Assembly: GCA_021324595.1 (NCBI GenBank)
Contig: JAJPIV010000136.1
Location: 1-46,387 of the forward strand
From: Actinomycetota bacterium
Lineage (GTDB): Bacteria > Actinomycetota > Actinomycetes > Streptosporangiales > Streptosporangiaceae
Direction: 5' to 3'
Length of the DNA stretch: 46,387 bases
The notes beneath the pieces were generated by a model. That model saw only the letters and a program-made list of their open reading frames with translations. It ran no database searches and had not been told where the DNA came from. The first letter of the stretch is position 1; each line of letters starts with the position of its first letter. Position numbers and translations under genes: made by a program. This document shows, piece by piece, positions 11,431-28,803 of the stretch.

Positions 11431-12475
11431 CACCGCCGTCCCCGGCCATCTCGCGCACCAGCGGCAGCACCTCGGCGGCCAGGATCTCCAGCGACCGCAG
11501 CTGCGCCGCCCAGGGCAGGCCGGGCAGGTAGCCGGCGGCGACGTAGTGCAGGTCGCCGCCGGCCGCCCGGCGGAACTCGTCGATCCGGGCGGCCACCCGC
11601 TCCGGGGTGCCCGCCAGGACCGCCGCGCGCAGCGCGTCCTCTTCACCGGGAGCCCACGGCGGCGGCGCCTGCGGCGGGCCGGCGGCCGCCCGCGCCGACT
11701 CCATGTCCGCGTACTTCCACGCCACGTACCTGACGTGGTCGCGGATCACGTCCCAGGCGTCGTCGCCGTCCCAGGCGAACGTCGGGGCGTGCATGGCGAC
11801 GGTGAACGGCCCGGCGGCCCCGCTCGCGGCCCGCTCGGCCCGCGCCAGCGCGACCTGGGCGGCGAGGGCCTCCGGCGTCACCTCGGCCGCCATGAGCCCG
11901 TCGCCCAGCCGCCCCGCCCGGGCGACCGCGCCGTCGCTCATCGCGCCGATCCAGATCGGCGGCCCGCCGGCCCGGGCGGGCAGCGGGCGCACGGCGACGC
12001 CGGGCCCGCCCGCGCCGGGCCCGCCCCGGACCAGCTCGCCCCGCCACGCCCCGCGCAGCACGCCGATCGTGGCGGTCAGCCTGCGCGCCCGCTCGGCCAG
12101 CGGGACGCCCAGGGCCTCGAACTCCTCCTCCCGCCACCCGAGGCCGAGGCCCAGGATCAGCCGGCCGCCGGAGATCAGGTCGGTGACCGCGGCGTCTTCC
12201 GCCAGCCGCAACGGGTCATGGAGGGGCGCGAGCAGCACGCCGGTGCCGATCGCCACCCGGGAGGTCCGGGCCGCGATCGCCGCGCACGCCGGCAGCAGCG
12301 ACGGCAGGTAGCCGTCGTCCACGAAGTGGTGCTCGGACACCCACACCGAGTCCAGGCCGAGGCCGTCCGCGGCGGCGGCCAGGTCCAGCGCCCGGGCGTA
12401 GATCTCGGCGCCGTCCCTGGGATCCCCCGGGTAGCGCTGGCAGGTGATCAGGCCGAAGCCGAGCTTGATGCTCAC
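11423..12475 (-). CDS. Luciferase-like (LLM) flavin/F420-dependent oxidoreductase
   Basis: 350 residues from GTG 12475, overlapping the stop of the C45 gene as GTGA. It shows the bacterial-luciferase TIM-barrel pattern: KLGFGLITCQRYPGDP at strand 1, AADGLGLDSVWVSEHHF, then TSRVAIGTGVLLAPLHDPLR and GGRLILGLGLGWREEEFEAL. A short insertion between WRGELVRGG and PPIWIGAMS resembles the TIGR03619-type F420 enzymes. Members oxidise or oxygenate small molecules with FMNH2 or F420H2. The cofactor cannot be decided from sequence alone. Its place between an amide-cleaving enzyme and HyuA suggests an oxidative step on the same substrate, such as N-dealkylation or ring oxygenation, which is an inference. 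Confidence 0.85.
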   Translation of the reverse strand: MSIKLGFGLITCQRYPGDPRDGAEIYARALDLAAAADGLGLDSVWVSEHHFVDDGYLPSLLPACAAIAARTSRVAIGTGVLLAPLHDPLRLAEDAAVTDLISGGRLILGLGLGWREEEFEALGVPLAERARRLTATIGVLRGAWRGELVRGGPGAGGPGVAVRPLPARAGGPPIWIGAMSDGAVARAGRLGDGLMAAEVTPEALAAQVALARAERAASGAAGPFTVAMHAPTFAWDGDDAWDVIRDHVRYVAWKYADMESARAAAGPPQAPPPWAPGEEDALRAAVLAGTPERVAARIDEFRRAAGGDLHYVAAGYLPGLPWAAQLRSLEILAAEVLPLVREMAGDGGGE

Positions 12476-13671
12476 GCCGCCCCCGCCTCGCCGTCCCCGC
12501 GGGCGGGCCGGGCTCCCGCGGGCGCCGGGCGGGCCGCCGCGACAGGCGAGGGCCTGGCGCGCAGCCCGGAGCAGTCCAGCTCCCGGTAGGGAGCCTGGCA
12601 GGGGTTGCCGTCGCTCACCCACATCCGGCGCGCGGTGAGGTCCATGAGCACCGAGGCGACCGTGGCCCCCTGGTCGAGCTCGCCGTCCCTCGCGTCGGGG
12701 TGGCAGCACACCGAGGACGGGTAGTTGGCATGGTCGGCCAGGAGTGACCGGAACAAGTCCAGCGACCGGCCGGCCGACGCGCGGACTCCGGCCCGCAGCC
12801 GCTGCAGCCGGACCGGGCTGTCCGGCATCGCCCACACCGAGACGTCGGTGCCGCCGAACCGGCCGGACAGGAAGTGGTTGGTGTGCAGGACGACCCCGTC
12901 GTCGGGGTCCGGGTAGGTGAGGAACACCTGCGAGAAGTCCCCGGGCGCGCACTCGGCGTTCACCGCGACGCCGTCGGCGTGCGCGAGCAGGTAGTTCGCC
13001 GAGGACGACCGGAAGCCCGCCTGCAGCACCGTGAGCGCGTCGGAGACGTTCTCGCAGTCCAGGATGGCCCGCAGCAGCACGTGGAACGGCAGGCCAGGAA
13101 CGCCGGCGTCCGCCGCGGTCACGAGCGCGTTGGCCGCCAGCCCGAGGCCGGAGGAGTTCATCCCGGCCTTGGCCAGCAGGCCGGCCTCGACGACGGTGAC
13201 GTAGCCGGGCCCGTCGTCCTGGGCGGCCTCCAGCACGACGACGGTCCGCGCGCACTGGGGCAGCCAGTCCCAGTTCTGGCCGAGCAGGGCCGGGCCTGGC
13301 CGCCCCGGCGCCGGCGCGACCGCGAAGGCGCTGCACTCGGCGGGCAGCTGGCGGCCTGTCGCCTGCCGCGCCCTGGCGGCGAACATCACCTCGGTGCGGA
13401 CGTTGACCGCGAGGATGTCGAGCAGGTCGAGCCCGGCGCCCTCGGCGATCCCGCGCATCTCCTCCAGGCAGCCGGGCCGGAACGCGGCGATCGGGGCCTC
13501 GAACCGGCCGGCCTCCGCGCGGACCCGGGCCCAGTCCCAGCCCGCGTAGTGCGCGAACACGTCCCGGTACAGGCTGACGGACCGGCGCACCCGGTCCCGT
13601 GCCTGCTCCCCGTACTGGCGGCCGCGCTGGGCGGCGGTGCCGGCGACCCTGACCAGCGGGAACTGCTCCAT
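12472..13671 (-). CDS. C45-family Ntn hydrolase (isopenicillin-N acyltransferase/acylase-like)
   Basis: 399 residues from ATG 13671, with AGGAGGAG upstream. The family pattern is clear: FPLVRVAGTAAQRGRQYGEQ at the N-terminus, ILAVNVRTEVMF, and AECSAFAV, where Cys113 should be the autocatalytic cleavage site and new N-terminal nucleophile. LLGQNWDWLPQC and EAGLLAKAGMNSSGLGLA then follow (the NxD and GxNxxG blocks), with VVLHTNHFLSGRF. Members cleave or transfer acyl groups at amide bonds of N-acyl amino acids, beta-lactams or peptides. There is no obvious signal peptide, so it is cytosolic. The last 30 residues are an Ala/Pro-rich tail. In this run it is a good candidate for opening or removing an amide-linked group. 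Confidence 0.85.
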   Translation of the reverse strand: MEQFPLVRVAGTAAQRGRQYGEQARDRVRRSVSLYRDVFAHYAGWDWARVRAEAGRFEAPIAAFRPGCLEEMRGIAEGAGLDLLDILAVNVRTEVMFAARARQATGRQLPAECSAFAVAPAPGRPGPALLGQNWDWLPQCARTVVVLEAAQDDGPGYVTVVEAGLLAKAGMNSSGLGLAANALVTAADAGVPGLPFHVLLRAILDCENVSDALTVLQAGFRSSSANYLLAHADGVAVNAECAPGDFSQVFLTYPDPDDGVVLHTNHFLSGRFGGTDVSVWAMPDSPVRLQRLRAGVRASAGRSLDLFRSLLADHANYPSSVCCHPDARDGELDQGATVASVLMDLTARRMWVSDGNPCQAPYRELDCSGLRARPSPVAAARPAPAGARPARGDGEAGAA

Positions 13672-14513: not shown

Positions 14514-15290
14514 CTACCGGCCGAGCAGCAGGCCACCGTTGACTCCGATCACCTGGCCGGTCACGTAGCTGGCGTCGGCCGAGGCCAGCCAGGCGACGGC
14601 GCCCGCGACGTCGCCGCCAGTGCCGAACCGCCCCAGCGGGATGCCGGCCCGGGCCCGTTCCACCTGCTCGTCGAAGGAGGTCCCGGACCGCCGTGCCCGC
14701 GAGTGCAGCTCGTCCCAGTGCATCCGCGTCGCCATGTTGCCGGGCGCGATCGCGTTCACCCGGATCCGGTGCGGCGCCAGCTCCAGCGCGAGGGAGTGGG
14801 TCAGCAGGGCGACACCCGCCTTGGACGCGCAGTAGGCCGCCCCGCCGGGCACGCCCTGCTGGCCGAAGACCGACCCCAGGGTGACGATCGAGCCGCCGGC
14901 CCCCTGGCTGATCATCAGCCGCGCGGCGGCCCTGGCCGCCAGGAACGTGCCGGTCAGGTTGACGTCGAGCACCCGGCGGAACTCGGCCAGGTCCGTGTCG
15001 ACCACCGCGGTGTCCGGCCCGCCGATGCCGGCGTTGCTGACCAGCAGGTCGATGCCGCCGAGCAGCCCGGCCGACCGGGCGATCGCCTCGTCGCAGGCGG
15101 CCTCGTCGGACACGTCGGCCACCAGCCCGCACACCGGCCCGGCGCCGTCGCAGGCCGCCCGGACCCGGTCCGCGGTCGCCGTCACCTCGGCGCTGACGTC
15201 GATCAGCGCGACCGCGCCGCCGTCGGCGGCGAGCCGGGCGGCGATCCCCTCGCCCAGGCCGCGGGCGGCGCCGGTGACCACGGCCCTCAT
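14514..15290 (-). CDS. Classical SDR oxidoreductase (second copy in operon)
   Basis: 258 residues from ATG 15290, which overlaps the stop of the deacetylase-like gene as ATGA. It carries TGAARGLGEGIAARL at the N-terminus, LVSNAGIGGP, the catalytic YCASKAGVALL, NAIAPGNMATRM, and the C-terminal YVTGQVIGVNGG end. ALIDVS after the second strand points to NAD(H). It is clearly related to, but only moderately similar to, the next SDR, so the two may act on different intermediates or form a heteromer. It is cytosolic, and coupling to the deacetylase-like enzyme suggests that it uses that enzyme's product. The substrate cannot be assigned. Confidence 0.88.
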   Translation of the reverse strand: MRAVVTGAARGLGEGIAARLAADGGAVALIDVSAEVTATADRVRAACDGAGPVCGLVADVSDEAACDEAIARSAGLLGGIDLLVSNAGIGGPDTAVVDTDLAEFRRVLDVNLTGTFLAARAAARLMISQGAGGSIVTLGSVFGQQGVPGGAAYCASKAGVALLTHSLALELAPHRIRVNAIAPGNMATRMHWDELHSRARRSGTSFDEQVERARAGIPLGRFGTGGDVAGAVAWLASADASYVTGQVIGVNGGLLLGR

Positions 15291-16066
15291 GCCCGGCCCG
15301 CGATCTCGGCGGCGGTGGCGACCCACACGTCGGCGTGGCCTGTGACGAACGACAGCAGCCAGTCGAGGAGCCCCAGCCGCCCCGGCCGCCCGATGATCTG
15401 CGGGTGCATGGTGAACACGCACGCGCCGCCCATCCGCCGGATCCCGAGGAACTCGGCCTCCCAGATCGAGCGCACGCTGTCGGTCGTGGCGATCGACTTC
15501 GTCCAGCTCGCGCCGTCGAACCAGAAGTGGGCCGCGTCGTCCAGCACCCAGGAGATCGGCACCTCGACCAGCGGCCGGCCCGGGATGCGGTACGGCCGGA
15601 CGTCGTCCATGAGGTTGGACGAGTAGGCCAGGCCGTGCTCGGCGAGCAGGTCCAGGGTGTGCGGGCTCAGGTCCCAGGACGGGGACCGGTACCCCGTGAC
15701 CGGGGTGCCGAAGGCACGCAGCACCTCCAGGCCCCGGGCCAGCTCGGCCTCCTCCTCCGGCCGGGACAGCGCGCTCGGCGAGGTGTGGGTGTAGCCGTGG
15801 TGGGCGAGCTCGTGGCCGGCGGCCACGATCTCCCGCACCCGCCCGGGATGCCGCTCGGCGACACGGCCGGGCACGAAGAACGTGGCCCGGACGGCGTGCC
15901 GGGCGAGCAGCGCCAGGATCTCGGGCACGGCCACCTTCGCGCCGTAGGTGCCCTGCGACAGCACCCCGGGCCGGCCCGCGTTGGCGGGATCCTCCCCGAT
16001 CCACACCTCCTCGGCGTCGAAGTCGAAGGTGAACGCCGCCGCGGCGGAAGCTCCCTCAGGCCACAT
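15287..16066 (-). CDS. Polysaccharide-deacetylase-fold hydrolase (PuuE/cyclic-imidase-like subgroup)
   Basis: 259 residues from ATG 16066; GTG 16078 in the same frame is an alternative. The NodB-type motif 1 is FTFDFDAEEVW (Asp15/Asp17) and motif 2 is ELAHHGYTHTSPS (the HxxxH metal ligands). GYRSPSWDLSPHTLDLLAEH and FTMHPQIIGRPGRLGLLDWL complete the family. No signal peptide is present, so it is not a secreted cell-wall deacetylase. Cytosolic members of this subgroup include PuuE-type allantoinases and cyclic imide hydrolases, which agrees with the amide-rich neighbourhood. It overlaps LivM by 11 bases and the next SDR by 4, so it is the first catabolic gene after the importer. Confidence 0.82.
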   Translation of the reverse strand: MWPEGASAAAAFTFDFDAEEVWIGEDPANAGRPGVLSQGTYGAKVAVPEILALLARHAVRATFFVPGRVAERHPGRVREIVAAGHELAHHGYTHTSPSALSRPEEEAELARGLEVLRAFGTPVTGYRSPSWDLSPHTLDLLAEHGLAYSSNLMDDVRPYRIPGRPLVEVPISWVLDDAAHFWFDGASWTKSIATTDSVRSIWEAEFLGIRRMGGACVFTMHPQIIGRPGRLGLLDWLLSFVTGHADVWVATAAEIAGRA

Positions 16067-17120
16067 CCCGCTCGGCACCTCCTCGCGCCAGGACGCCGTC
16101 GCCCGGCCCGGCGTCGCCTCCGCCGTCCTCGGCCGCCCAGGCCGCGACCCGGCGCCAGTACCGGCTCACCAGCCCGGCGATGCCGCCGGGCACGAACACC
16201 ACGACCACCAGCAGGAAGACCCCGAGGATGGTCAGCTCGGCCCCCGGGTGGGTGACCAGAGCGGTCTGCACGACGGCGAGCAGGGCAGTGCCGATGATCG
16301 GCCCGCTGATCGTGCCCATCCCGCCGATCACCAGCATCGTCACGTCGATGCTCATCGGCGTCAGGCCCATCACGCTCGGGTCGATGCTCTGGTTGAAGCA
16401 GACGTACAGGGATCCGGCGATCCCGGCCAGGAAGCCCGAGACCGCGAACGCGATCAGCCGGTACTTCAGCGGGCTGACGCCGCGGGCCGCGGCGTAGGCC
16501 GGCGCGTCCCTGATGCCCCGCAGCGCGATGCCGAGCGAGGACCGGCTGACCGCCGCGACCGCGGCCGTCGAGGCCACGACCACGGCCAGCGCCGTCCAGT
16601 AGTAGTACCGGTCCGCCGCGGCGATGCTGTCCGAGCCGAAGAGGCCCCGCACGATCGGCAGCCCGAACGAGCCGCCGGTCAGGCCGCTGCCGTCGTTCAG
16701 GATGACGTACTGGACGACCTCGGCGAACGCGAACGTCAGCAGCGACGTGTAGATCCCGTACAGCCGCAGCGTGGGGAACGCCAGGAGCACCGCGGCGACG
16801 GAGGCGACCCCGCCGCCCGCCAGGACCGCCAGCCACGGCGACACCGGGGTGTGCAGCATGAGGATGCCCGCGCCGTAACCGCCGAGCGCGTAGATGGCGA
16901 GCTGGCCGAAGTTCCACACCCCGGCGATGCCGAGGACGAAGTTCCAGCTCGTGTTGAGCACCAGCAGGATCAGCGTGGTCACCATCACGGTCATCGCGTA
17001 CTGGTTGGAGACGACGACCGGGACCATCGCGGCGATCGCGACGAGCAGCGCGGTGACGCCCCAGCGCCCCGCCGTCATGTCGGGGAACGCGATCGCGAGC
17101 CCGGACTGGCGCGCGCTCAC
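16056..17120 (-). CDS. livM: Branched-chain amino acid/amide ABC importer permease, LivM type
   Basis: 354 residues from GTG 17120. LivM-type membrane protein with about ten hydrophobic helices. Conserved blocks include NTSWNFVLGIAGVWNFGQLA, ALGGYGAGIL, SSLGIALRGIRDAPAYAAARG (the EAA-like loop that contacts the ATPases) and MLVIGGMGTISGPIIGTAL. With LivH it should form the transmembrane channel of a HAAT-family importer (amino acids, amides, urea, small carboxylates). Its GTG overlaps as GTGA the TGA that would end full-length LivH, which indicates the original coupling even though LivH now has an internal TAG. The C-terminal tail is hydrophilic and overlaps the hydrolase gene. Confidence 0.9.
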   Translation of the reverse strand: MSARQSGLAIAFPDMTAGRWGVTALLVAIAAMVPVVVSNQYAMTVMVTTLILLVLNTSWNFVLGIAGVWNFGQLAIYALGGYGAGILMLHTPVSPWLAVLAGGGVASVAAVLLAFPTLRLYGIYTSLLTFAFAEVVQYVILNDGSGLTGGSFGLPIVRGLFGSDSIAAADRYYYWTALAVVVASTAAVAAVSRSSLGIALRGIRDAPAYAAARGVSPLKYRLIAFAVSGFLAGIAGSLYVCFNQSIDPSVMGLTPMSIDVTMLVIGGMGTISGPIIGTALLAVVQTALVTHPGAELTILGVFLLVVVVFVPGGIAGLVSRYWRRVAAWAAEDGGGDAGPGDGVLARGGAERDVA

Positions 17121-18013
17121 AGCCGTGCCTCCGACGGCCGTCCGAGCAGGCCGTAGGGCCTGAAGATGAGCACCAGCAGGATCACCCCGTACAGGATCGG
17201 CAGCGACCAGGTCTCGCCGACCAGCACCTCGGCGACCGCCTGGATCAGGCCGATCGCCTAGGCGGCGTAGACGGTGCCCGGCAGGCTGCCCAGTCCGCCG
17301 AAGATGACCACGATCAGCGCCTCGAGCAGCGGCAGGTCGCCGGCCTGCGGGTAGGCGAAGTACAGCCCGCCGAGGAAGACCCCGGCGACTCCGGCGAGGG
17401 CCGAGGCCAGGCCCATGGTCAGCGGGTAGAGCTTGCTCACCGGGACGCCCATCAGCCGCGCGGCGTCCAGGTCCTGGGCGACCGCGCGGATCGCCATTCC
17501 CCAGCGGCTGCGGGCCAGGAAGATCCCCAGGCCCCCCATCATGGCGACCGAGACGATGGCCATCGCGAGGGATTGATACGGCAGGTTGACGCCGTGGTAG
17601 ACGTTGATCCCGCCGGAGATCACCGGGGTCACGTTCCGCTGCTGCGGCCCGAGGACCTCCAGCGCCACGTTGGAGAGGATCATCGCGACCGCGAACGTGG
17701 TGATGAACGTGACCATCTCGAAGTCGATCGCGTTCATCCGCTTCATCAGCGGCTGCACCGAGACCAGCTGGGTCAGGGTGCCGAGGGCGAACGTGGCCAG
17801 GAACGCCAGCACGATGGCGATCACCGGGTTCCAGCCGGCCACCACCAGGATGCCCCAGCCCATGAAGCTGCCGACCATGACCATCGACCCCTGGGACATG
17901 TCCAGGATCCGCAGCGTCCCGTAGATCAGGGTCATGCCGATGGCGACCAGGCCGTAGATTGAGCCCAGGATGACCGTGGTCACGAGGATGCCGACGAGGT
18001 CTGACAGGCTCAT
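17117..18013 (-). CDS. livH: LivH-type ABC importer permease interrupted by an in-frame TAG
   Basis: From ATG 18013 the frame encodes a typical LivH: SIYGLVAIGMTLIYGTLRIL, SQGSMVMVGSFMGWG, SRWGMAIRAVAQDLDAARLM and LIVVIFGGLGSLPGTVYAA. A TAG at 17260-17258 then ends it after 251 residues. Read through, the same frame continues for 46 codons (AIGLIQAVAEVLVGETWSLP, then YGVILLVLIFRPYGLLGRP) to TGA 17119-17117, exactly overlapping the LivM start. The full 298-residue length is normal for the family, so the stop is a nonsense change, a sequencing error, or a readthrough site. Without the tail the last helix is missing. The gene starts 4 bases after LivF. Confidence 0.88.
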
Positions 18014-18017
18014 CGCG

Positions 18018-18737
18018 TCACACGCTTCCGAGGTAGGTCTGGACGATGGTCGGGTCGGCCGACAGCTCGGCGTAGCCTCCGGAGGCGACGATCGCGCCGG
18101 TCTCCAGGACGTGCACCGAGTCGGCGACCTGCCCGACGTGGGTGAAGTTCTCCTCGACCAGCACGATCGTGGCGCCGGCGGCCTTGAGCTCGGCGATCGC
18201 CTCGTACACGGTGTCGATCGCCACCGGCGCCAGCCCCAGCGAGGGCTCGTCGATGAGCATGATCCGCGAGGGCCGCATCAGGGCCCGGCTCAGGCTCACC
18301 AGACGGCGTTCGCCGCCCGAGAGCGTCCGCGCCCGCTGGCGCGCCCGGGAGGCCACCGCGGGGAAGCGCTCGTAGATCTTCACCAGCTCGGCACGGCGCG
18401 CCCGCCAGGCGGGCCCGGGGAACGCGCCCATGAGCAGGTTGTCCTCGACCGTCATCTCGGCGAACAGGCCGTCGCCCTGGGGCACGTGGACCAGCCCCAG
18501 GGCTGCGATCCGCTCCGCCGGCCATCCGGCCACGTCGGTCCCGCCGAGCTCCACTCGCCCGGCCGAGGGCCTGACCAGCCCGCTGATCGCGCGCAGCAGC
18601 GTCGTCTTGCCATGCCCGTTCGGGCCGATCACCACGGCGACCTCGCCCGCGCCGACCCGCAGGCTCAGGTCGCGGATGACGGCCGAGTCTGCGTACCCGG
18701 CCCGCAGGCCGGCCACCAGCAGGCGCGGCTCGCTCAT
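18018..18737 (-). CDS. livF: ABC importer ATP-binding protein, LivF type
   Basis: 239 residues from ATG 18737, overlapping the LivG stop as ATGA. Motifs: Walker A VIGPNGHGKTTLLRAI (with His where Ala is usual), Q-loop VHVPQGDGLFAEMTVEDNLL, signature TLSGGERRLVSLSRALM (SGGE followed by RRL rather than QQM), Walker B IMLIDEPSLGLAP, and switch LVEENF in place of the usual switch His, as commonly seen in LivF proteins. It pairs with LivG on the cytosolic face to drive uptake. Length and order are standard for the family. It is followed 4 bases later by LivH. Confidence 0.92.
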   Translation of the reverse strand: MSEPRLLVAGLRAGYADSAVIRDLSLRVGAGEVAVVIGPNGHGKTTLLRAISGLVRPSAGRVELGGTDVAGWPAERIAALGLVHVPQGDGLFAEMTVEDNLLMGAFPGPAWRARRAELVKIYERFPAVASRARQRARTLSGGERRLVSLSRALMRPSRIMLIDEPSLGLAPVAIDTVYEAIAELKAAGATIVLVEENFTHVGQVADSVHVLETGAIVASGGYAELSADPTIVQTYLGSV

Positions 18738-19495
18738 CCGCCCGGCGCCTTCCTGTGCCGGGAGCCGAGGTAGACCTCGATGACCTGCTCGTCGGCGAGC
18801 ATCTGCCCGGGCGTTCCCTCGAAGAACACCGAGCCGTGGTGCATCACCAGGACGCGGTCCGCGATGGAGGTCAGCGCCCGCATGACATGCTCGATGCACA
18901 CCACGGCGATCCCGCGGTCGCGGACGCGGGCGATCAGCCCGATGGTCTGGTCGATCTCGGCCGGGCTGAGCCCTCCGAACGGCTCGTCCAGCAGGATCAC
19001 CGACGCACCGGTGGCCAGGGCCGTGCCGAGCATGAGCCGCTTGCGGTCGAAGACGCCGAGCAGGTCCGAGGATGCCCGCGCCTGGCCGGCCATGCCGATG
19101 AGGTCCAGGTACTCGGCGGCGGCCTGCCGCCGGTGCCGCGCGGGCCTCCCCGGCCGCCCGAAGGCGACCGCGAGGACCATGTTCTCCTCGACCGTCAGCG
19201 ACCGCGCCACCGTGGGCTGCTGGAACGTCCGGGCCAGGCCCAGCCGGGTGCGGGTGTGCACCGGCGCGTCCGTGATCGTCCGGCCGGCCAGCAGCACCTC
19301 GCCGCCGGTGGCCTTGGTGTGGCCGGTGATCACGTCGAAGAGGGTGGTCTTGCCCGCCCCGTTGGGCCCGGCGATCCCCAGGATCTCGCCGGCGCTCACC
19401 GCGAGGGACACGCCGGCGACCGCGACCAGCCCTCCGTAGTCCTTGCGGATTCCGCGCGCCTCGAGCGCCGGCCCGCCGCCCCGGGCTACAGCCAC
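18734..19495 (-). CDS. livG: ABC importer ATP-binding protein, LivG type
   Basis: 253 residues from GTG 19495, which overlaps the end of the binding-protein gene by 10 bases. Motifs: Walker A GIAGPNGAGKTTLFDVITG, Q-loop LARTFQQPTVARSLTVEENM, Walker B SVILLDEPFGGLSP, and switch VVCIEHVMRAL. The signature loop is unusual: LLGVFDRKRLMLGTALATGA replaces the usual LSxGQQRRLEIARAL, with no SGGQ-like core. This variant occurs in some LivG proteins, but it could weaken ATP hydrolysis or make the dimer depend on LivF. It acts on the cytosolic membrane face with LivF. The earlier in-frame residues upstream belong to another frame's gene. Confidence 0.9.
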   Translation of the reverse strand: MAVARGGGPALEARGIRKDYGGLVAVAGVSLAVSAGEILGIAGPNGAGKTTLFDVITGHTKATGGEVLLAGRTITDAPVHTRTRLGLARTFQQPTVARSLTVEENMVLAVAFGRPGRPARHRRQAAAEYLDLIGMAGQARASSDLLGVFDRKRLMLGTALATGASVILLDEPFGGLSPAEIDQTIGLIARVRDRGIAVVCIEHVMRALTSIADRVLVMHHGSVFFEGTPGQMLADEQVIEVYLGSRHRKAPGG

Positions 19496-20805
19496 GGCGG
19501 GAGCTGGAACGCGCCGGTGGTGTAGGGGTCGGGCGACACCAGGACCTGCTTGCCGCCCTGGATCTGGAACGTCAGGTGCGGCATGCCCAGGCTCGGGTCC
19601 CTGGTGTAGTCCGGGTACGGGTAGCAGGTGAGGTAGTCGTCGGGGAACCGGTAGGTGCCGCAGACCCCGCGGTACGTCGTGCCCTTGATGATCTCGTTGA
19701 TGGTCTTGAAGTCGTAGGGGTCGCCCGCCTCGGCGGCGGCGTTCGCCCACAAGTGCACCAGGTCGTACTGGTCGCCGGCGTTGCTGAAGCCGGGGCTGGC
19801 GCCGAACCGCCGGGCGAACGACGCCTGGAACGGGCCGGCGATCGGGTCGTTCTGCAAGATCCCGACCACGGTGGACCACAGCACGCCGTCGGCCGCGCTG
19901 CCGGCGAGCTGGAGGTACTGCGGGATCGACGGGGCGTACTGCTGGTAGACCAGCGACTTGGTGGGCGACTGCCGGAACTGCTTGATGAACGCCGCCTCGT
20001 CGCTAGCGGCGTAGTCGCTGAAGAACACGATGCCCGGCGGGTTGTTGCGGATGTTCACCAGGACCGCGCTCCAGTCCGCCTGCGGCGCGGTGAACTGCTG
20101 GAACATCGTCGCCTTCCAGCCGAGCTTGGTCATCTCGGCGTTGAAGGCGTTGGCGATGTTGAGGCTGTACGGGTCGTTGCTGGTGACGATCGCCATCGTC
20201 TTCGATGACGGCGTCCACTTCTTGGTCTTGATCAGCTCCTCGACCAGCACCACGAAGCCCGGCCCGTACCACGTCTCGGACGGGTCGCCCTGGAAGATGT
20301 TCGTGATGCCGTGCTGCTTGACGAAGTCGACGTTGCCGTGCCAGGTGTTCACGTGGAACGTCGGGATGCCCGCCTGGGCGACGATCGGGAACTCGACCGA
20401 GCTGTAGGTGCAGAACGGGGCGAAGATGGCCGCCACGCCCTGGGACACGAACTTCTGGAACACGCTCTTCATCACGTCGGGCTGCTGGATCTGGGTGTCC
20501 AGCACCGAGATCTGGACCTTGCGCCCGAGCACGCCGCCGCGCGCGTTGATCTCCGCCACGGCCAGCTGCTGCCCGCGGCTCATCATCTGCCCGTCGCCGG
20601 AGTACAGCCCGGTGACCGGGACCCCCGCGCCGATCGTGATCGGCGCCTTGCTTCCCGAGGACCGGCCCGACGTGCCCGGCGACGAGGACGACGCGCTGCC
20701 CCCGGCGTAGCCCGCCGCGCCTCCGACGATCAGTCCCCCGGCTCCCGCGGCCCCGAGGCCGCGCAGGAACGATTTCCTGGTCACACCCGGGCTGCTGCCT
20801 GCCAT
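19486..20805 (-). CDS. ABC importer substrate-binding protein (amide/branched-chain amino acid type)
   Basis: 439 residues from ATG 20805 with GGAGGGGG upstream. The N-terminus TRKSFLRGLGAAGAGGLIVG is a Tat-like signal with an Arg-Lys in place of the twin Arg, followed by a Ser-rich linker, so the protein is exported and probably held at the cell surface. The mature part is a type-1 periplasmic-binding fold: ITIGAGVPVTGLYSGDGQMM, QLAVAEINARGGVLGRKVQI, and a C-terminal TRDPSLGMPHLTFQIQGG block. This C-terminus is shared with AmiC/FmdD-type amide and urea binders rather than with classical Leu/Ile/Val binders. It heads the minus-strand run and lies opposite the LuxR-fusion regulator, whose sensor half is its homologue. 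Confidence 0.9.
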   Translation of the reverse strand: MAGSSPGVTRKSFLRGLGAAGAGGLIVGGAAGYAGGSASSSSPGTSGRSSGSKAPITIGAGVPVTGLYSGDGQMMSRGQQLAVAEINARGGVLGRKVQISVLDTQIQQPDVMKSVFQKFVSQGVAAIFAPFCTYSSVEFPIVAQAGIPTFHVNTWHGNVDFVKQHGITNIFQGDPSETWYGPGFVVLVEELIKTKKWTPSSKTMAIVTSNDPYSLNIANAFNAEMTKLGWKATMFQQFTAPQADWSAVLVNIRNNPPGIVFFSDYAASDEAAFIKQFRQSPTKSLVYQQYAPSIPQYLQLAGSAADGVLWSTVVGILQNDPIAGPFQASFARRFGASPGFSNAGDQYDLVHLWANAAAEAGDPYDFKTINEIIKGTTYRGVCGTYRFPDDYLTCYPYPDYTRDPSLGMPHLTFQIQGGKQVLVSPDPYTTGAFQLPPWL

Positions 20806-20869
20806 GTTCCCGCGACCCCCTCCAGTGGGCGACGGACCGTCCCGGCCCGCCAGGTGATTGAAGGAACTG

Positions 20870-20888
20870 TGACTCAGCGTTACAGTCA
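20870..20888. promoter_or_regulatory. Inverted repeat TGACT-N9-AGTCA in the divergent control region
   Basis: TGACT (20870-20874) and AGTCA (20884-20888) form a 5-bp dyad just 5 bases from a longer palindrome, within the 173-base gap between the importer operon and the regulator. It may be a half-conserved second operator or overlap a promoter. This is an inference from position. Confidence 0.3.
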
Positions 20889-20893
20889 TCGCA

Positions 20894-20911
20894 ATCCGTC
20901 AGATGACGGAT
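20894..20911. promoter_or_regulatory. 18-bp palindrome ATCCGTCA-GA-TGACGGAT, candidate operator
   Basis: Perfect 8-bp arms around two bases, between the start of the binding-protein gene (20805) and that of the LuxR-fusion regulator (20979). The size and symmetry suit a NarL/LuxR-type dimer. It is the best candidate site for the fusion regulator to control both directions. No matching copy was noticed before the second catabolic operon. Confidence 0.5.
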
Positions 20912-20978
20912 ATCTGGCCGGGGGCTGGGTGCGAGAGCATGTCCTGGCCGGGCGGGCGAGGCTGGACGGGGACGGGCG

Positions 20979-22775
20979 GTGACGGCGGGACGGACCGGCA
21001 GGCACTTCGGCGGCCCTGGTGATCCGGGGCGGCGCGGCCTGGATGGCCCCGGGGCGGCCTCGCTCGCCGCCTACCCGCAGCTGGCCGCCTATGCCCGCGC
21101 GTTCATCGAGTCGGGCGCCGCGTCGGCGGCCTTCTACTGGCCCGATCCCGGCGGCGGCTGGCTGCGGGTCAGGTTCACGGCGGCGCGGGGCGAGCCGGGA
21201 GCGCCGGGCGCGCAGGTGACCATCACCCGGACGGAGCTGCCGAGCCGGCTGACCAACCGCGAGCTGGACGTGCTCACGCTGATGGCCGGCGGGCTGAGCA
21301 ACGGCCAGATCGCCGAGCGGCTCGTCTCCAGCACCCGGACCATCTCCACGCACGTGGAGCACATCCTGGCCAAGCTCGGGCAGGCGAGCCGCACGGGGGC
21401 GGCGGCGATGGCGGTGGAGCGCGGCTACCTGAAGCTCCCGGTGCCCGGGGGCGGCCCGCTGGGCGGGCTGACCGTCGGGGTGCTGCACGCGCTGGCCACC
21501 GGGGACCCCGGCGGGCAGGGCGGGGGGCCGCGCCGTCTTGCGCCGTCCCGCGGCCGCCCTGCGCCCGTCCTGGACGCCGTGCTCGCGCCGGCGGCGGCCA
21601 GGGCCAGCCGGCCGCTCCTCATCGGCTCGGCCTTCCCGCTGCACGGGCCGGCGGCCGACGACGGCGCGCAGATGCGGGACGGCTCGGCGCTGGCGGTCGC
21701 CGAGATCAACGCCCGCGGCGGGATCGGCGGGCGGCGGGTCGAGCAGCTCGTCGTCAGCATGGACATCTTCTCGCCCGACGGGGTGCGGCGGGCGTTCGAG
21801 GAGCTCTTCGCGGCCGGCGTGGACGCCGTGACCTCCGGCTACGTCTTCGCCGAGGACCTGGCCAGGGACCTGGCCGCCGAGTACGGCGCGCCCTACCTGC
21901 ACGCGATGACGTCCCAGTCGCAGGCGGTGACGGTGCGGGACAACCGGTCCCGGTACCGGAACTTCTTCCAGGTCTGCCCGACCGAGGCGCACTACGGCCC
22001 GGGATTCATCCGCTTCCTGTCCGAGGCGCGGGACGGGGGGTGGCGTCCCCGCAGCCGGCGGATCGCGTTCATCGAGAGCGCGCTGCCCAGCGGGCAGATG
22101 CTCAACCCGCCGACGGTGGCGCTGGCGGAGCGGCGCGGCTGGGAGATCGCCTGGGTGCGGACGGTGCCGGCCTTCGGCACCGACTGGGACGCGGTGGTCG
22201 GCGACCTGGAGCGGATCGACCCGGCTGCGGTGATGATCACCCAGTTCCTCCCGGGCGAGATGGCCGAGTTCCAGATCCTGGCCCGCGGCCGGCTGCCCGG
22301 CACGGTGATCTACGCCGTCTACAACCCCTCGGTTCCCGAGTTCCTCAAGATGGCGGGCAGCGCGGCCGAGGGCCTGGTCTGGGCGACCGTCACCGGCACC
22401 TACCACGACGTCATCGGCCGGCGCTTCCGGTCCGACTACGCGGCCAGGTTCGGCGCGCCGCCGGGCTGGTCGCACGCGGGGATCGCCTACGACGAGATCC
22501 ACCTGCTCGCCCAGGCGTGGATGTCGGTGCCCAACCCGCGCGACTTCGGCGCGGTCTGCCGCGAGCTGCGGCGGGTGCGGCACCGCGGCGTCAACGGGGC
22601 GTACTTCCTCGACAACGCCGAGCAGGCGGGGCTGAGCTACCCGGACACCACGCCGGACCCCTCGCTCGGGCAGGCGCACCTCGTCCTGCAGATCCAGGAC
22701 GGCGCCCATCGCATCATCAGCCCGGCGCCTTACGCCGAGGGCCGGTTCCGCGTGCCCTGCGCCCTCCCGGGCTAG
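20979..22775 (+). CDS. LuxR-type HTH fused to a periplasmic-binding-protein sensor domain
   Basis: 598 residues from GTG 20979, without signal peptide or membrane helix. Residues 25-85 form a small uncharacterised domain. Residues 90-150 form a LuxR/NarL helix-turn-helix (LTNRELDVLTLMAGGLSNGQ, then TRTISTHVEHILAKLGQAS). After a Gly/Pro/Arg linker, residues 212-598 form a type-1 periplasmic-binding domain (LLIGSAFPLHGPAADDGAQM, ALAVAEINARGGIGGRRVEQ) with a C-terminal TPDPSLGQAHLVLQIQDG. Both ends match the exported binding protein of the divergent importer (AVAEINARGG; T-DPSLG--HL--QIQ). It is therefore probably a cytosolic one-component regulator that senses the transported compound, comparable in logic to AmiC controlling AmiR, but in one chain. 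The ribosome site is weak; a leaderless start is possible. Confidence 0.88.
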   Translation: MTAGRTGRHFGGPGDPGRRGLDGPGAASLAAYPQLAAYARAFIESGAASAAFYWPDPGGGWLRVRFTAARGEPGAPGAQVTITRTELPSRLTNRELDVLTLMAGGLSNGQIAERLVSSTRTISTHVEHILAKLGQASRTGAAAMAVERGYLKLPVPGGGPLGGLTVGVLHALATGDPGGQGGGPRRLAPSRGRPAPVLDAVLAPAAARASRPLLIGSAFPLHGPAADDGAQMRDGSALAVAEINARGGIGGRRVEQLVVSMDIFSPDGVRRAFEELFAAGVDAVTSGYVFAEDLARDLAAEYGAPYLHAMTSQSQAVTVRDNRSRYRNFFQVCPTEAHYGPGFIRFLSEARDGGWRPRSRRIAFIESALPSGQMLNPPTVALAERRGWEIAWVRTVPAFGTDWDAVVGDLERIDPAAVMITQFLPGEMAEFQILARGRLPGTVIYAVYNPSVPEFLKMAGSAAEGLVWATVTGTYHDVIGRRFRSDYAARFGAPPGWSHAGIAYDEIHLLAQAWMSVPNPRDFGAVCRELRRVRHRGVNGAYFLDNAEQAGLSYPDTTPDPSLGQAHLVLQIQDGAHRIISPAPYAEGRFRVPCALPG

Positions 22776-22912: not shown

Positions 22913-25363
22913 CTAGCCTCGGGGGCGCTGTGACGCAGGGTCGTACATCGGGCGCAGGGACGCCCGCGCGGGCACCCGCTCGGCGGCGATCTCGATCTCG
23001 TAGGCCCCCGAGGTGTACCACGACGGCTCGGTCCCCGGCTCCGGGGCGCTGACCCAGCCGAGGCCGACCGTGCGGCCGAGCGTGTGGCCGTAGGCGGCGG
23101 AGCACAGCTGGCCGACGAGGGCGCCGTCCCGGTAGACCGGCTCGTCGTGGTAGGCGAACGCGCCGGCGTCCTCGAGGGCGAACTGGACGAGCCGCCGCGA
23201 CGGCCCGCGCTCGCGCTGCCGGAGCAGCGCCTCGCGCCCGATGAACCCGCCGGGCTTGTCCCACGCGACGGCGAAGCTCAGCCCCGCCTCGACCGGCGTG
23301 TCCCGCCCGCCGATGTCGTGGCCCCAGCTCCGGTAGGCCTTCTCCAGCCGCAGCGAGTTCATCGCGTAGTACCCCGCGTGGCGCAGCCCGCGGCCGGCCC
23401 CGGCGTCCACCAGGGTGCCGTAGACGTGCGCCGCGTACTCGGCGGGTATCAGGAGCTCCCAGCCGAGCTCGCCCACGTACGTGATCCGGGTGGCGCGGAC
23501 GTAGCCGAGGCCCAGGTCGATCTCCCGGGACGCGCCGAACGGGAACGCCTCGCCGGACAGGTCGTGGTCGGTGAGCGGCTGGAGCATGCGCCGGGAGCCC
23601 GGCCCCATGACGGACACCATCGCCCAGGCCGCGCTGACGTCGGTGACGGTGGCAAACTCGCCGGGCCCGATGTGACGCTCCAGCCAGTCGCGGTCACGGC
23701 CGACGGTCGCCGGGCCGGACAGCACCAGGAACTCCCGCTCGCCGACGCGGGTGACGGTGACGTCGGCCTCGATGCCGCCCCACTGGTTGAGCCACTGGGT
23801 GTACACGATGCGCCCGGGCTCGACCCCGACGTCGTTCGCGCTCACGCGCTGGAGCACCGTCTCGGCGTCCCGGCCCTGGACCAGCAGCTTCCCGAACGAG
23901 GATGTGTCGAAGAGGCCGACGGCCTCGCGGACGGCCCGGTGCTCGGCGGCCGAGGGATCGAACCAGCTCGGCCGGCCGAAGGCGGGCTCCTCCGTCCGGT
24001 CCGCACCGGGCGGGGCGTACCAGTTGGCGCGCTCCCAGCCGAGCTGCTCGCCGAAGACGGCGCCCGCCGCGCGGACCTGCTCGTGGAGCGGGCTGCGCCG
24101 CAGGCCGCGCGCGCTGGCCCGCTGCTGGAACGGCCAGTGGATCTCGTACGCCAGGTCCAGCGTCTCGGTGACCCGCCGCTCCAGGTAGCGCCGGTTGGCC
24201 TCGTGCGGCGCGACCCGGCGCGGGTCGGTCTCCGGCACGTCGACCGGCGGCTGGCCGTCGACGATCCAGTCGGCCAGGACGGAGCCGGCCCCGGGCCCGC
24301 TGAGGAAGCCGATCGAGTTGAAGCCCGCCGCGACGTAGTAGTTCCGCAGGCCGGGTGCCAGGCCGAGGTGGTACAGCCCGTCGGGGGTGAAGCTCTCCGG
24401 CCCGCAGAAGTGCAGCCGGATCCCGGCCTCGGCCAGGCACGGCAGCCGTTTGATCATGTTCTCGTAGAACGGGCCGATGTGGTCCCAGTCCTCGGGGAGC
24501 CGGGTGAACTCGGCGTCCTCCGGGATGCCGCCGGAGGCCCACGGGTAGCTGCCGGGCTCGAAGAAGCCGACCATCAGGCCGGCGCCCTCGTTCTTCACGT
24601 AGGCGTGATCCGGGCCGCTCTTGATCGTCGGCAGGCCGGGAGGCAGGCCGGGGATGGCCTCGGTGACGATGTAGTAGTGGGCGAGCGCCTGCAGCGGGAC
24701 CCGGACGCCGGCCGCGGCGCCGAACTCGCGGCCCCACATGCCGGTGGCGTTGACCACGTGCCCGGCCTCGATGCGGCCGCGCTCGGTCCGCACGGCGACG
24801 ACCCGGTCGCCGCTGCGGACCACTCCGGTCGCCGGCGTTCCCTCGAGGATCCGCACGCCCAGCGCGCTCGCGCCCCGGGCGAGGGCCATCGTGGTGTCGG
24901 TCGCGTTGCCGCGCCCGTCGTCGGGGAAGTACAGCGCGCCCGCCAGGTCGTCGACGTGCAGCGGGGGGAACAGCTCGCGAGCCTCCCGCGGGGTGATCAG
25001 CTCGACGCGGATGCCATCCGCGCGGCACGCCGACGCCTGCCGGCGCAGTTCTTCCCAGCGCTCGGGGGAGTCCGCCAGGTGCAGCGTCCCCGTCCGCTCG
25101 AATCCGGTCGAGAAGCCGGTCTCGCGTTCCAGCGACTCGAAGATCCGCAGGCTGCGCCTGACGATCAGCCGGGTCCCGCGGGTGGGCCGGGCCTGCGTGA
25201 TGAGGCCGGCCGCGTGCCAGGTCGTGCCCGAGGTGAGGCGCCGGCGCTCCAGGAGCACGACGTCGGTCCAGCCCCGCTTCGCCAGGTGGTACGCCGTGCT
25301 CGCGCCGATGATGCCGCCGCCGACGATGACCACCTGGGCGCGGGCGGGCAGTGTCTGGTCCAT
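22913..25363 (-). CDS. Dimethylglycine/sarcosine dehydrogenase-like flavoprotein with GcvT domains
   Basis: 816 residues from ATG 25363, after GAGGAAGG. The N-terminal DAO domain begins VVIVGGGIIGASTAYHLAKR. SGTTWHAAGLITQARP contains His50 in the WHAAG context that carries covalent FAD in dimethylglycine dehydrogenases. A FAO_M linker follows at roughly residues 375-430. The GCV_T and GCV_T_C domains (RAVREAVGLFDTSSFGKLLV; GELGWELLIPAEYAAHVYGT) bind tetrahydrofolate. Such enzymes oxidise N-methyl amino acids and pass the methyl carbon to tetrahydrofolate or release formaldehyde. It is the last gene of a four-gene minus-strand set. It complements HyuAB in a possible N-methyl-hydantoin or N-methyl-amino-acid route, which is inference. 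Confidence 0.88.
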   Translation of the reverse strand: MDQTLPARAQVVIVGGGIIGASTAYHLAKRGWTDVVLLERRRLTSGTTWHAAGLITQARPTRGTRLIVRRSLRIFESLERETGFSTGFERTGTLHLADSPERWEELRRQASACRADGIRVELITPREARELFPPLHVDDLAGALYFPDDGRGNATDTTMALARGASALGVRILEGTPATGVVRSGDRVVAVRTERGRIEAGHVVNATGMWGREFGAAAGVRVPLQALAHYYIVTEAIPGLPPGLPTIKSGPDHAYVKNEGAGLMVGFFEPGSYPWASGGIPEDAEFTRLPEDWDHIGPFYENMIKRLPCLAEAGIRLHFCGPESFTPDGLYHLGLAPGLRNYYVAAGFNSIGFLSGPGAGSVLADWIVDGQPPVDVPETDPRRVAPHEANRRYLERRVTETLDLAYEIHWPFQQRASARGLRRSPLHEQVRAAGAVFGEQLGWERANWYAPPGADRTEEPAFGRPSWFDPSAAEHRAVREAVGLFDTSSFGKLLVQGRDAETVLQRVSANDVGVEPGRIVYTQWLNQWGGIEADVTVTRVGEREFLVLSGPATVGRDRDWLERHIGPGEFATVTDVSAAWAMVSVMGPGSRRMLQPLTDHDLSGEAFPFGASREIDLGLGYVRATRITYVGELGWELLIPAEYAAHVYGTLVDAGAGRGLRHAGYYAMNSLRLEKAYRSWGHDIGGRDTPVEAGLSFAVAWDKPGGFIGREALLRQRERGPSRRLVQFALEDAGAFAYHDEPVYRDGALVGQLCSAAYGHTLGRTVGLGWVSAPEPGTEPSWYTSGAYEIEIAAERVPARASLRPMYDPASQRPRG

Positions 25364-25422
25364 GCGTCCTTCCTCGGTGAGCGCCGATGTGACACGGCGG
25401 GCGGAGCGGCGGCCGGGCCGGG

Positions 25423-26895
25423 TCAGTCGCCCTCGCCGGCCGCCGGGCGCGCCCCGGCCGCGCCCGGCGGCCTGGCTGGCGCGCTCGCGGCGGGGCGCGA
25501 GCGCAGCGCCCACCCGAGCCGGTGGCCGACGGCGTGGTAGGCGAGGGCGCACCCCAGGATCACCGGCGTCGAGGCCGTGATCACGTTGTAGACGCCGACG
25601 CCCGTGCCGAAGGACTGCGCCCACGAGATCAGCGTCGTCGACCCCGCCAGCCACAGCCACGCGGCGACGCCCAGCACCCAGATCACGATGGCCCCGAGGT
25701 TGAAGCCGCTGGTGAACCAGTACGGGCCGTTCCGCCGGTACAGGTCGGGGACCGACAGGCGCTCGCGCCGCAGGAGGAAGTAGTCGCCGAGCGCGATGCC
25801 CCAGTACGGCGCCTCCAGGGCGCCGACGACCGTGAGGATGTCGTTGAACTTCGCCGACAGCGTGCCCTGGTACAGGAACGGGATCGAGGGGATGGCGACC
25901 AGCAGCACGACGAGGTGATAGCTGACCTTCGGGATGGCAACCTTCAGCGCCATCACCGAGGCGTAGAAGAGCATCGCGCAGTTGATGATCGTCGAGAAGA
26001 CGATGATGAAGATGGCGGGGATGCCCAGGCCCGCGCCGGTCGCCCAGGCGCTCGGGTCGGCCGTCTTGAACGCCAGCGCCGCCATCCCGCCGATCACCGC
26101 GAACAGGATGCTGACCACGGTCAGGCCGCCCCAGGCGCCCCAGAACGCCGCCTTCTGCGTCTTGGCGAACCGGTTCCATGAGCCCATGTAGGGGAACCAG
26201 GAGATGTTGTAGGCGACCGCGGCCTCGATCGCGTAGGCGAACGTCACCGAGTGGTCGGGGCGGATCGCGGCGAGCCTGCCCCAGCTGAAGTCGGCCAGCA
26301 GCTTGCCGAGCAGGATGACCGCGAAGACGATCAGCAGCGGCACCGCCCACTTGACCAGCCGGAACACGGTCTTCGGGCTGATGTAGAGCATGATGACCGG
26401 GATGACGATCCCGCAGATCAGCGCGAAGAGGGTGAACCAGTTCGCGCCGAACCCGGTCGAGCCGCTGGCGGTCGCGCTCAGCTCGCGGACGGCCGAGATC
26501 CCGGAGTTGCCCGCGATCTGCGACAGGATGCCGATCCAGCCGAAGTTGATGACGACGAGCAGCACGACGCCGATGTACGAGCCGTAGGTCCCGAAGGTGG
26601 ATCGCATGCCGATGTACTCGTCGACGCCGTACCGGGCGCTGCGCAGCCCGGTCAGCGCCGGCCACAGGCAGCCGAGCAGGCTGCCCGCGGCGGTGGCGAC
26701 GATCATGCCGCCCAGCCCCAGCGCCGACGCGTAGTAGCCGCCGAGCAGGAACGTGGTGAGCAGGACGTTCCCCCCGGCCCAGAGCCAGAACATCAGCAGC
26801 GTTCCGGCGTACCGGTCCTTGCGGGGCAGTGGCAGGATGTCCTGCCCGTAATGAGCCGATCCCGGCTCGACGGTGTCGAGTGCCTCGGTCGCCAT
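25423..26895 (-). CDS. NCS1-family purine/cytosine/hydantoin-type permease
   Basis: 490 residues with about 12 hydrophobic helices. LLMFWLWAGGNVLLTTFLLG is the first helix with the family Asn; GLRSARYGVDEYIGMRSTFG, AYNISWFPYMGSWNRFAKTQ and ALEAPYWGIALGDYFLLRRE are typical NCS1 blocks, the last one being the loop before helix 10. Members import nucleobases, allantoin or hydantoins with H+ or Na+. The ligand cannot be assigned, but the surrounding HyuAB, PucR and dehydrogenase genes make a hydantoin- or purine-derived compound likely. It lies 59 bases ahead of the dehydrogenase gene and follows a 72-residue membrane protein. The C-terminal 35 residues are Ala/Pro-rich. Confidence 0.88.
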   Translation of the reverse strand: MATEALDTVEPGSAHYGQDILPLPRKDRYAGTLLMFWLWAGGNVLLTTFLLGGYYASALGLGGMIVATAAGSLLGCLWPALTGLRSARYGVDEYIGMRSTFGTYGSYIGVVLLVVINFGWIGILSQIAGNSGISAVRELSATASGSTGFGANWFTLFALICGIVIPVIMLYISPKTVFRLVKWAVPLLIVFAVILLGKLLADFSWGRLAAIRPDHSVTFAYAIEAAVAYNISWFPYMGSWNRFAKTQKAAFWGAWGGLTVVSILFAVIGGMAALAFKTADPSAWATGAGLGIPAIFIIVFSTIINCAMLFYASVMALKVAIPKVSYHLVVLLVAIPSIPFLYQGTLSAKFNDILTVVGALEAPYWGIALGDYFLLRRERLSVPDLYRRNGPYWFTSGFNLGAIVIWVLGVAAWLWLAGSTTLISWAQSFGTGVGVYNVITASTPVILGCALAYHAVGHRLGWALRSRPAASAPARPPGAAGARPAAGEGD

Positions 26896-26958
26896 GGACG
26901 CCTCCTGCGGTACGAGACTGTGCGGGCGGGCAGCCCCGGCCGGGCGCTGCCTGGGGGA

Positions 26959-27177
26959 TCAGCGCCCGGTCGCCACCCACCAGATGGCGGCGCCGACCGC
27001 GGCGGCGAGCGAGGCGATGGTCCAGCCGGCCAGCGCCAGCGAGGAGGTCCTGCCGTCATCGTCCGGCTCCTCGAGCACCGCCTCGAGCCGGGCGGGATCG
27101 ACGAGCATGTCCCGCGCGGGGATGGCGCGCAGCGCCTGGAGCTGGCTGGCCGGTGCCTGCGGTCGGCTGTCGTTCAC
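26959..27177 (-). CDS. Small single-TM protein, unknown function
   Basis: 72 residues from GTG 27177, with CGAGGAGC 6-7 bases upstream. It has a hydrophilic N-terminal half (SQLQALRAIPARDMLVDPAR, then AVLEEPDDDG) and one C-terminal hydrophobic helix (SLALAGWTIASLAAAVGAAI) ending WWVATGR, so it is probably anchored with the N-terminus in the cytosol. I do not recognise a family. It sits between the aldehyde dehydrogenase and the NCS1 permease in the same direction, 63 bases before the permease, which suggests an accessory or regulatory role for the permease. The codon usage and ribosome site support it as a real gene. Confidence 0.6.
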   Translation of the reverse strand: MNDSRPQAPASQLQALRAIPARDMLVDPARLEAVLEEPDDDGRTSSLALAGWTIASLAAAVGAAIWWVATGR

Positions 27178-27207
27178 GAGGGCTCCTCGCGGTCGGGCGG
27201 GACGGGG

Positions 27208-28644: not shown

Positions 28645-28789
28645 AGCTCCTCCGCGCCAGGTGCGTGCTGGCCCGGCCCGCTCATGCCGGGAACTCACGG
28701 GACCGGCGGGCCGAGCCGAATGCCCACGACGCTAGGCTTGGCAGTTTGCCCGGTCAATTGGCACTTCATACTGTCCGGGCTTTGCAGAT

Positions 28790-28803
28790 TGTGCACTTGC
28801 ACA
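28790..28803. promoter_or_regulatory. Palindrome TGTGCA-CT-TGCACA, candidate PucR operator
   Basis: Perfect 6-bp arms around two bases; allowing one bulged base, AGA/TCT extends them. It lies in the gap between the divergent aldehyde dehydrogenase (28644) and PucR gene (28825 or 28900). Control by PucR is inferred. Confidence 0.4.

Follow-up and report, generated by a model that had tools for sequence, protein, structure and literature searches.

An open reading frame in the window, by which we mean the whole 46,387-nucleotide stretch of actinobacterial DNA that was analysed, joins a LuxR/NarL-type helix-turn-helix (HTH) head to a complete type-1 periplasmic-binding-protein domain in one chain, and the same fusion is carried by 14 genomes or plasmids. 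We read the protein, a rare kind of bacterial gene switch, with a probability of roughly 0.6 as a cytosolic one-component sensor-regulator that responds to a small amide, imide or ureide, acts on a palindrome between its own gene and a divergent transporter–hydrolase operon and which arose by a sensor swap. Regulators that combine an HTH with a binding-protein fold are already known; what is new is the pairing of GerE with Peripla_BP_6, together with unfused cousins of GAF type that partly share the same palindrome.

The fusion protein and its recurrence

The 598-codon frame at 20979–22775 starts with GTG and contains no stop, giving one chain of 598 residues (Table 1). Pfam matches GerE at 57.9 bits (curated cut-off 23.5) and Peripla_BP_6 at residues 215–545 (E 3.4e-27; 96.5 bits against a curated cut-off of 31.7), and both families are matched in all 12 members of the protein set A4 (GerE at E 0.001). 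The AlphaFold2 model, built from 12 input sequences (mean pLDDT 80.7), is confident in the HTH and in the binding domain and places a helix (33–45) and three strands (49–55, 61–69, 77–85) ahead of the HTH; the window protein has 89 residues before the HTH, and 113 at most if the frame is followed back to the upstream stop. Among solved structures 3h5l matches the binding domain best (Z 44.5, rmsd 2.8), and the domain is complete, since residues 211–596 cover 378 of the 397 residues of 3h5l. The second match is 8wch, with L-pyroglutamate bound (Z 40.3), and further matches include AmiC (1pea, Z 35.4) and UrtA chains (Z about 35). The open reading frame, Pfam, the model and the 3h5l alignment thus agree with the earlier note, which had described a NarL/LuxR HTH and a complete type-1 binding domain in a single chain.

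Table 1. Features of the fusion gene, the intergenic gap and the divergent cluster (window coordinates)
Feature	Position	Strand	Basis
Fusion regulator of 598 aa, LuxR/NarL HTH joined to a type-1 binding domain	20979..22775	+	ORF, Pfam, AF2 model, 14 fusions in tree; GTG start uncertain
Residues 27–88, helix and three strands, taken as last part of a PAS-like segment	21057..21242	+	AF2 models, sequence match with unfused GAF-LuxR regulators
GerE (LuxR/NarL) helix-turn-helix, residues 90–145	21246..21413	+	Pfam E 7.6e-16
Disordered linker, residues 177–209	21507..21605	+	pLDDT <50
Type-1 periplasmic-binding-protein domain, residues 211–598	21609..22772	+	Pfam 215–545; 3h5l (Z 44.5, 378 residues aligned)
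Palindrome ATCCGTCAGATGACGGAT, probably the fusion protein's operator	20894..20911	.	Position, single genomic copy of CCGTCANNTGACGG, recurrence at other fusion loci
Divergent exported binding protein, Tat-like leader by eye	19486..20805	-	ORF open to 20889; Pfam; orthologue start
ABC ATP-binding protein A	18734..19495	-	Pfam ABC_tran and BCA_ABC_TP_C; start approximate
ABC ATP-binding protein B (UrtE/LivF-like)	18018..18737	-	Pfam
Branched-chain-amino-acid-type permease 1	17258..18013	-	BPD_transp_2
Branched-chain-amino-acid-type permease 2	16056..17120	-	BPD_transp_2
Polysaccharide-deacetylase-family hydrolase, PuuE/cyclic-imidase-like, constant fusion partner	15287..16078	-	Pfam; PDB 3rxz, 3qbu, PuuE 3cl6
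Short-chain dehydrogenase, same cluster	14514..15254	-	Pfam; start approximate
AAT-family (penicillin acyltransferase-like) protein, same cluster	12475..13671	-	Pfam

Inspection by eye shows no leader peptide, and the HTH comes before the binding domain; maximum hydropathy does not discriminate between the fusion (1.18) and the exported protein over its first 80 residues (1.29). As had been proposed, the fusion is probably located in the cytosol, where it probably senses a ligand directly. At E 0.01 the Pfam matches in the fusion are confined to GerE and Peripla_BP families, with no receiver domain, Autoind_bind, LacI-type HTH or GAF among them. Four familiar assignments were ruled out on these grounds: a NarL-type response regulator (no N-terminal receiver domain), a quorum-sensing LuxR protein (no autoinducer-binding domain), a LacI/GalR member (the HTH is GerE) and the AmiC/AmiR type (sensor and GerE head are in one chain).

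The presence of the fusion in 14 genomes or plasmids excludes an assembly error. Identity to the window protein is 78% in L029, 67% in L030, 61% in L032, 58% in L031, 41% in L033 and 38% in L012 (L010 and L011 are repeats of L029 and L030), and two further copies are plasmid-borne, on pYJND-2 of Paenarthrobacter sp. YJN-D and pAt14-818c_b of Agrobacterium tumefaciens, where both records annotate the protein as 'ABC transporter substrate-binding protein'. Fusions at 78, 67, 58, 41 and 38% identity elsewhere and on two complete plasmids rule out a frameshift or mis-assembly, and the continuity of HTH and sensor, on which the earlier note depended, stands. Among 72,556 plasmid records 136 match, two of which (pYJND-2 and pAt14-818c_b) cover at least 80% of the query; plasmid records and the relatives search, from which the best 80 of 327 relatives were kept, are the two routes by which Pseudomonadota were sampled. 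In the class search, with at most four candidates scored per genome, nine of 296 genomes match at 1e-40, and in at least three of them, counting the window's own genome, the match extends over the HTH. The phylum search, with at most five candidates scored, finds the exported protein with a divergent fusion in at least four of 296 genomes (G000, G327, G388, G408). The fusion is present in 3 of 17 genomes of G327's family and 2 of 22 of G087's family.

The palindrome, the gene neighbourhood and the proposed mode of control

The frame of the exported binding protein is open to 20889, and we favour a start at 20805, where the orthologue in L029 starts and where the profile match ends; the gap to the fusion gene is therefore 173 bp, which agrees with the interval 20806–20978 named in the earlier note. 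A scan of this gap recognised no sigma-70 promoter. Within it lies a palindrome that the earlier note did not mention, and CCGTCANNTGACGG is found once in the 4.09-Mb genome, here between the divergent genes. We describe it by the 18-bp consensus ATCsGTCAnnTGACsGAT, which has 16 fixed positions, and count as a site any match at 14 or more of them. The scan covered 410 bp around the starts of 14 genes, namely 13 fusions and L034, the second contig of L032's bin, which represents that bin (the overlap of the two contigs differs by one residue). Sites occur near the start in 10 of the 14 genes, each reached by at most one of 500 first-order Markov shuffles, and lie up to 350 bp before the start: 16/16 in the window, L029, L033, L165, L166 and L167, 15/16 in L030, and 14/16 in L031, L034 and L110. 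L012, L111, L126 and L127 have no such site within 410 bp around the fusion start. L126 and L127 carry a 14/16 site at 5979 and 5927, respectively, 56 bp before the C-N hydrolase gene that precedes the hydrolase and the fusion, and L128, the larger locus of L012, has a site at 14554 that matches 16/16 and lies 192 bp ahead of the SDR match at the head of a minus-strand set of SDR, MFS, AAT and hydrolase genes. The palindrome is thus present in 13 of 14 fusion loci, with no site of 14/16 or better in the 25.6 kb of the Agrobacterium locus L111; second copies stand 53–96 bp before the hydrolase in L165, L166 and L167. The window, L029, L030, L031/L034, L033, L110 and L037 were known before the consensus was written and are not independent of it; the independent loci are L165, L166, L167, L126, L127 and L128 and, without a fusion, L130, L035 and L129.

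The palindrome also occurs beside unfused regulators. Separate LuxR regulators without a binding domain, likewise absent from the earlier note, adjoin the binding proteins of L035, L036, L037/L038, L130, L131 and L132; those of dimethylformamidase clusters are here called DmfR-like and are not identified as DmfR. The match is 16/16 at L130 and 14/16 at L035, and at L036, L037, L131 and L132 the best site reaches 10–11/16, no better than shuffles. Among the 70 loci L039–L108, sites are found in 9 of 14 with a regulator that shares the wider head versus 4 of 56 others (Fisher 1.6e-5), a grouping made after the palindrome matches were known and in which six of the nine positive loci are close relatives (Nocardioides/Pimelobacter); three of the four site-bearing loci outside the group have the same THVEHILAKL helix. 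Across 41 relatives the strict palindrome is present in 10, with 19 sites in total, three of them (G000, G002, G026) at the fusion cluster, and the pattern read backwards gives no site in the 41 genomes. Since it stands beside unfused regulators and only 3 of 19 strict sites are at fusion clusters, the palindrome seems to go with the head type and not with the fusion as such. Strict sites away from fusion clusters number 16 and include some in genomes with no fusion found, such as G001, G006 and G018, and the head family probably has further regulons. Nocardioides/Pimelobacter and Arthrobacter loci have the palindrome near 12400 (L039, L043, L045, L046, L050, L051) or near 8350 (L056, L057); in L043, L046, L056 and L057 it precedes a gene that is symporter-like by eye, with a LuxR regulator bearing the same helix adjacent or about 4 kb away.

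The most constant neighbour is the polysaccharide-deacetylase-family hydrolase, which lies 129–4971 bp from the fusion in all 13 loci with flanks (L032, without a flank, was omitted from this count). Its solved relatives are 3rxz, HpPgdA (3qbu) and the PuuE allantoinase (3cl6), and HpPgdA and PuuE are linked to cyclic imidases in the excerpt of PMC9304392. A C-N hydrolase gene stands beside it in L110, L111, L126 and L127 (Pfam on L110). The exported binding protein, directly divergent from the fusion, is found in seven of the 13 loci (the window, L029, L030, L031, L165, L166, L167), and the remaining six have no exported relative within the stretches examined; MFS genes occur in L033 and L128, and an NCS1-type permease gene lies about 7 kb from the fusion in L111. 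In the window a ureide/amide catabolic island surrounds the fusion (5852–13671 and 22916–30384), with genes for Amidohydro_3, hydantoinase A and B, AAT, an NCS1 permease, an aldehyde dehydrogenase, a PucR regulator and an enzyme with DAO and GCV_T domains that is sarcosine-dehydrogenase-like by eye. Because the hydrolase and the window cluster point to amide, imide or ureide catabolism, our guess from the neighbours is that the ligand is a small compound of that class. At L129:914-3826, in G071, the hydrolase and an exported binding protein 52% like that of the window are encoded divergently, with a 15/16 palindrome between them; the matches listed for this genome in the class search include no fusion.

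We infer DNA binding, the ligand class, the sign of control and the order of the swap. The C-terminal type-1 domain would bind a small compound of amide, imide or ureide type once this has entered the cell, and closure of its two lobes would act through the linker and PAS-like remnant to re-pair or re-orient the LuxR/NarL HTH heads. The pair of heads would then act on the palindrome at 20894–20911 and switch both the divergent transporter–hydrolase operon and its own gene, so that a nutrient probably turns on its own breakdown genes directly. By analogy with DmfR, a LuxR-family activator that acts in the presence of dimethylformamide (excerpt of PMC4543880), control would most likely be activation. 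In the chief alternative the signal is a cytosolic intermediate or end product, or the protein is a repressor that its ligand releases, and not an activator that responds to the imported compound. The fusion does accompany the hydrolase rather than any one transporter, and a palindrome in so short a gap is placed where binding could block transcription as well as help it, but the precedent of DmfR, an activator working with its substrate present according to the same excerpt of PMC4543880, speaks for induction, and we regard this alternative as rather unlikely, if the strongest of those considered.

Origin of the sensor and of the head

A tree of the binding domains (62 rows, 381 columns; IQ-TREE with a mixture model; partial proteins L002, L037, L038 and L115 omitted) recovers the 14 fused domains as a single clade (100/99), separate from that of the eight exported divergent proteins (100/99), with composition warnings for many rows in both the full and the reduced tree. 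Comparing these clades, with the five distant rows labelled D and the rows labelled O set aside for conservation and identity alike, we find 76 positions at least 85% conserved with the same residue in both and 17 conserved to that degree in both with different residues, several of them near the expected cleft by eye (Y288/F159, S312/W183, C333/D202, I502/D373). From these two sets of positions the fused domain is judged to be under constraint, and its ligand is probably not exactly that of the exported protein. The 17 differences could also be taken to mean that the domain no longer binds a ligand and survives only as a dimerisation or protein-contact module, with the signal coming from elsewhere; we think this improbable, as the binding fold is complete and the same positions are conserved among fused domains down to 33% identity, as expected of a kept pocket of different specificity.

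To the earlier note the sensor looked like a duplicate of the binding protein that serves the transporter. Between the fused domain and its divergent exported counterpart identity is 34% over 384 residues and the alignment score is 548, compared with 32–120 (fused) and 40–154 (exported) against five of the seven other binding proteins of the genome; within that set the two are clearly closer to each other. They are not closer than the fused domain is to the binding proteins of dimethylformamidase clusters, to which it scores 486–564. The start and end motifs quoted in the earlier note are present in both proteins, but they recur in the subfamily, for instance as NDPSLAMPHLTYQIQ (L119) and DDPSLGMPHQFLQIQ (L113), and therefore mark no special pair. 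Mean identity is 32.5% between fused and exported domains, 32.2% between the fused domains and the six sister proteins described below, and about 35% (31–38%) for the seven same-locus pairs; the origin of the sensor could not be settled by identity alone.

In the tree, forcing the fused and exported clades together costs 70 units of lnL and is rejected (AU p = 2.6e-6), so the fused domain is no recent copy of the transporter's own protein. Its sister group (100/98; 97/97 with nine long or odd rows removed) consists of the exported proteins L035, L114, L036, L120, L121 and L122 of dimethylformamidase clusters. All six sister loci contain a gene or gene piece like L130:12306-14600, which is DMFA2_C, dimethylformamidase beta-like, by Pfam (L130 is the larger locus of L120, and the pieces in L131, for L121, and L132, for L122, are at the stretch edge). 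A looser grouping of the fused and exported clades with L112, L113 and L119 is not rejected (AU p 0.058, nine rows removed). Local duplication followed by fusion to a LuxR head, which would give sensor and importer a common ligand by descent, can appeal to this looser grouping, to the 34% identity and equal length, to the directly divergent exported gene in seven fusion loci, to same-locus pairs slightly above the fused-to-dimethylformamidase-type mean and to the 76 positions conserved alike, yet it is very improbable given the rejected direct sisterhood, the well-supported sister group and the six of 13 loci that lack an exported relative in the stretches examined.

Five of the six sister binding proteins stand beside an unfused GAF-LuxR regulator, and L114 (the Agrobacterium cluster) has an AraC-family regulator in its place (Pfam). 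The model of the L036 regulator shows a GAF-type fold at about residues 1–171 (Z up to 14.7), followed by strands (185–189, 195–197), a helix (212–221), strands (227–232, 237–244, 253–260) and the HTH; Pfam matches GAF in 2 of 10 unfused regulators and Autoind_bind in one. Ten unfused proteins have 253–291 residues ahead of the HTH and eleven fusions 62–97, counted from chosen starts (those of L126, L127, L165, L166 and L167 are our own choice, and L032 is cut by its contig). If the frame is instead followed back to the upstream stop, 85–187 open residues precede the HTH in 11 of 13 fusions, 369 in L126 and 231 in L127; in these two about 134 remain once the preceding hydrolase gene is taken into account. 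The fusion head and the segment upstream of it match the unfused regulators in sequence, and both forms share the HTH type and a PAS-like segment before it, the GTCA-N2-TGAC palindrome (at L130 and L035) and a place beside a binding-protein transporter operon; the unfused form differs in having an N-terminal GAF-type sensor and no binding domain. The fusion is thus a protein without the GAF domain but with the adjoining segment and HTH of the unfused regulators, and the two forms appear in part to use one operator, with sites at L130 and L035 and none above shuffles at L036, L037, L131 and L132. A tree of the HTH heads alone is poorly resolved and does not group the fusions together, so a single origin holds for the sensor only.

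In the sensor swap that we favour, a GAF-LuxR regulator like those beside amide-uptake operons would have lost its GAF domain and acquired a binding domain at its opposite end, with head and operator retained. The fuller version of this history, in which the GAF sensor was removed, a transporter's binding domain was added at the opposite end and the resulting switch has stayed with an imidase/allantoinase-like hydrolase, irrespective of the transporter, across Actinomycetota and as far as a plasmid of an alphaproteobacterium, seems to us an even bet.

Related systems and further relatives

Several known systems resemble the fusion in part. AmiC/AmiR of Pseudomonas also places amide catabolism under a type-1-fold sensor, with two proteins where the fusion has one chain, and AmiR is an RNA-binding antiterminator. 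LacI/GalR proteins likewise unite an HTH and the type-1 binding-protein fold in one chain; their HTH is LacI-type rather than GerE, and their binding domain belongs to the sugar-type binding family, that of the fusion to Peripla_BP_6. SgrR and Btr/YbbB are natural regulators that combine an HTH with a solute-binding protein and use a transport-type binding domain as sensor, with HTH families and binding folds other than those of the fusion. The recruitment of a type-1 binding-protein domain by a DNA-binding domain has been described for LacI/GalR, and synthetic chimeras of ABC-transporter binding proteins with DNA-binding domains yield ligand-responsive regulators, engineered and, as described there, without a LuxR head (excerpt of PMC6079105). 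A search of the titles and abstract openings of open-licence papers found no natural fusion of LuxR with a binding protein. Fused and unfused forms apparently working on one palindrome make the re-wiring of a LuxR head to a new sensor directly testable and could supply natural components for amide, imide or ureide biosensors; if the sensor swap is true, it is a natural and transferable version of the protein engineers' chimeras.

Three observations concern relatives of the binding domain elsewhere. In a dimethylformamidase cluster of Aminobacter niigataensis p1 (L112:3403-7200), the binding protein follows genes for a response regulator and an ATP-binding, kinase-like protein, perhaps a third way of coupling this sensor family to control. 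In three plasmid records of Paracoccus pantotrophus (L115:5413-7054 on pPAN2, and matches H4–H6) a binding-protein relative is matched in three or four pieces, and the pPAN2 copy adjoins hydantoinase A/B genes. Finally, L037 and L038, titled as Bifidobacterium breve MAGs, carry a LuxR and binding-protein pair very like those of L036 and L132, and since the latter come from other actinobacterial genomes the B. breve labels look wrong.
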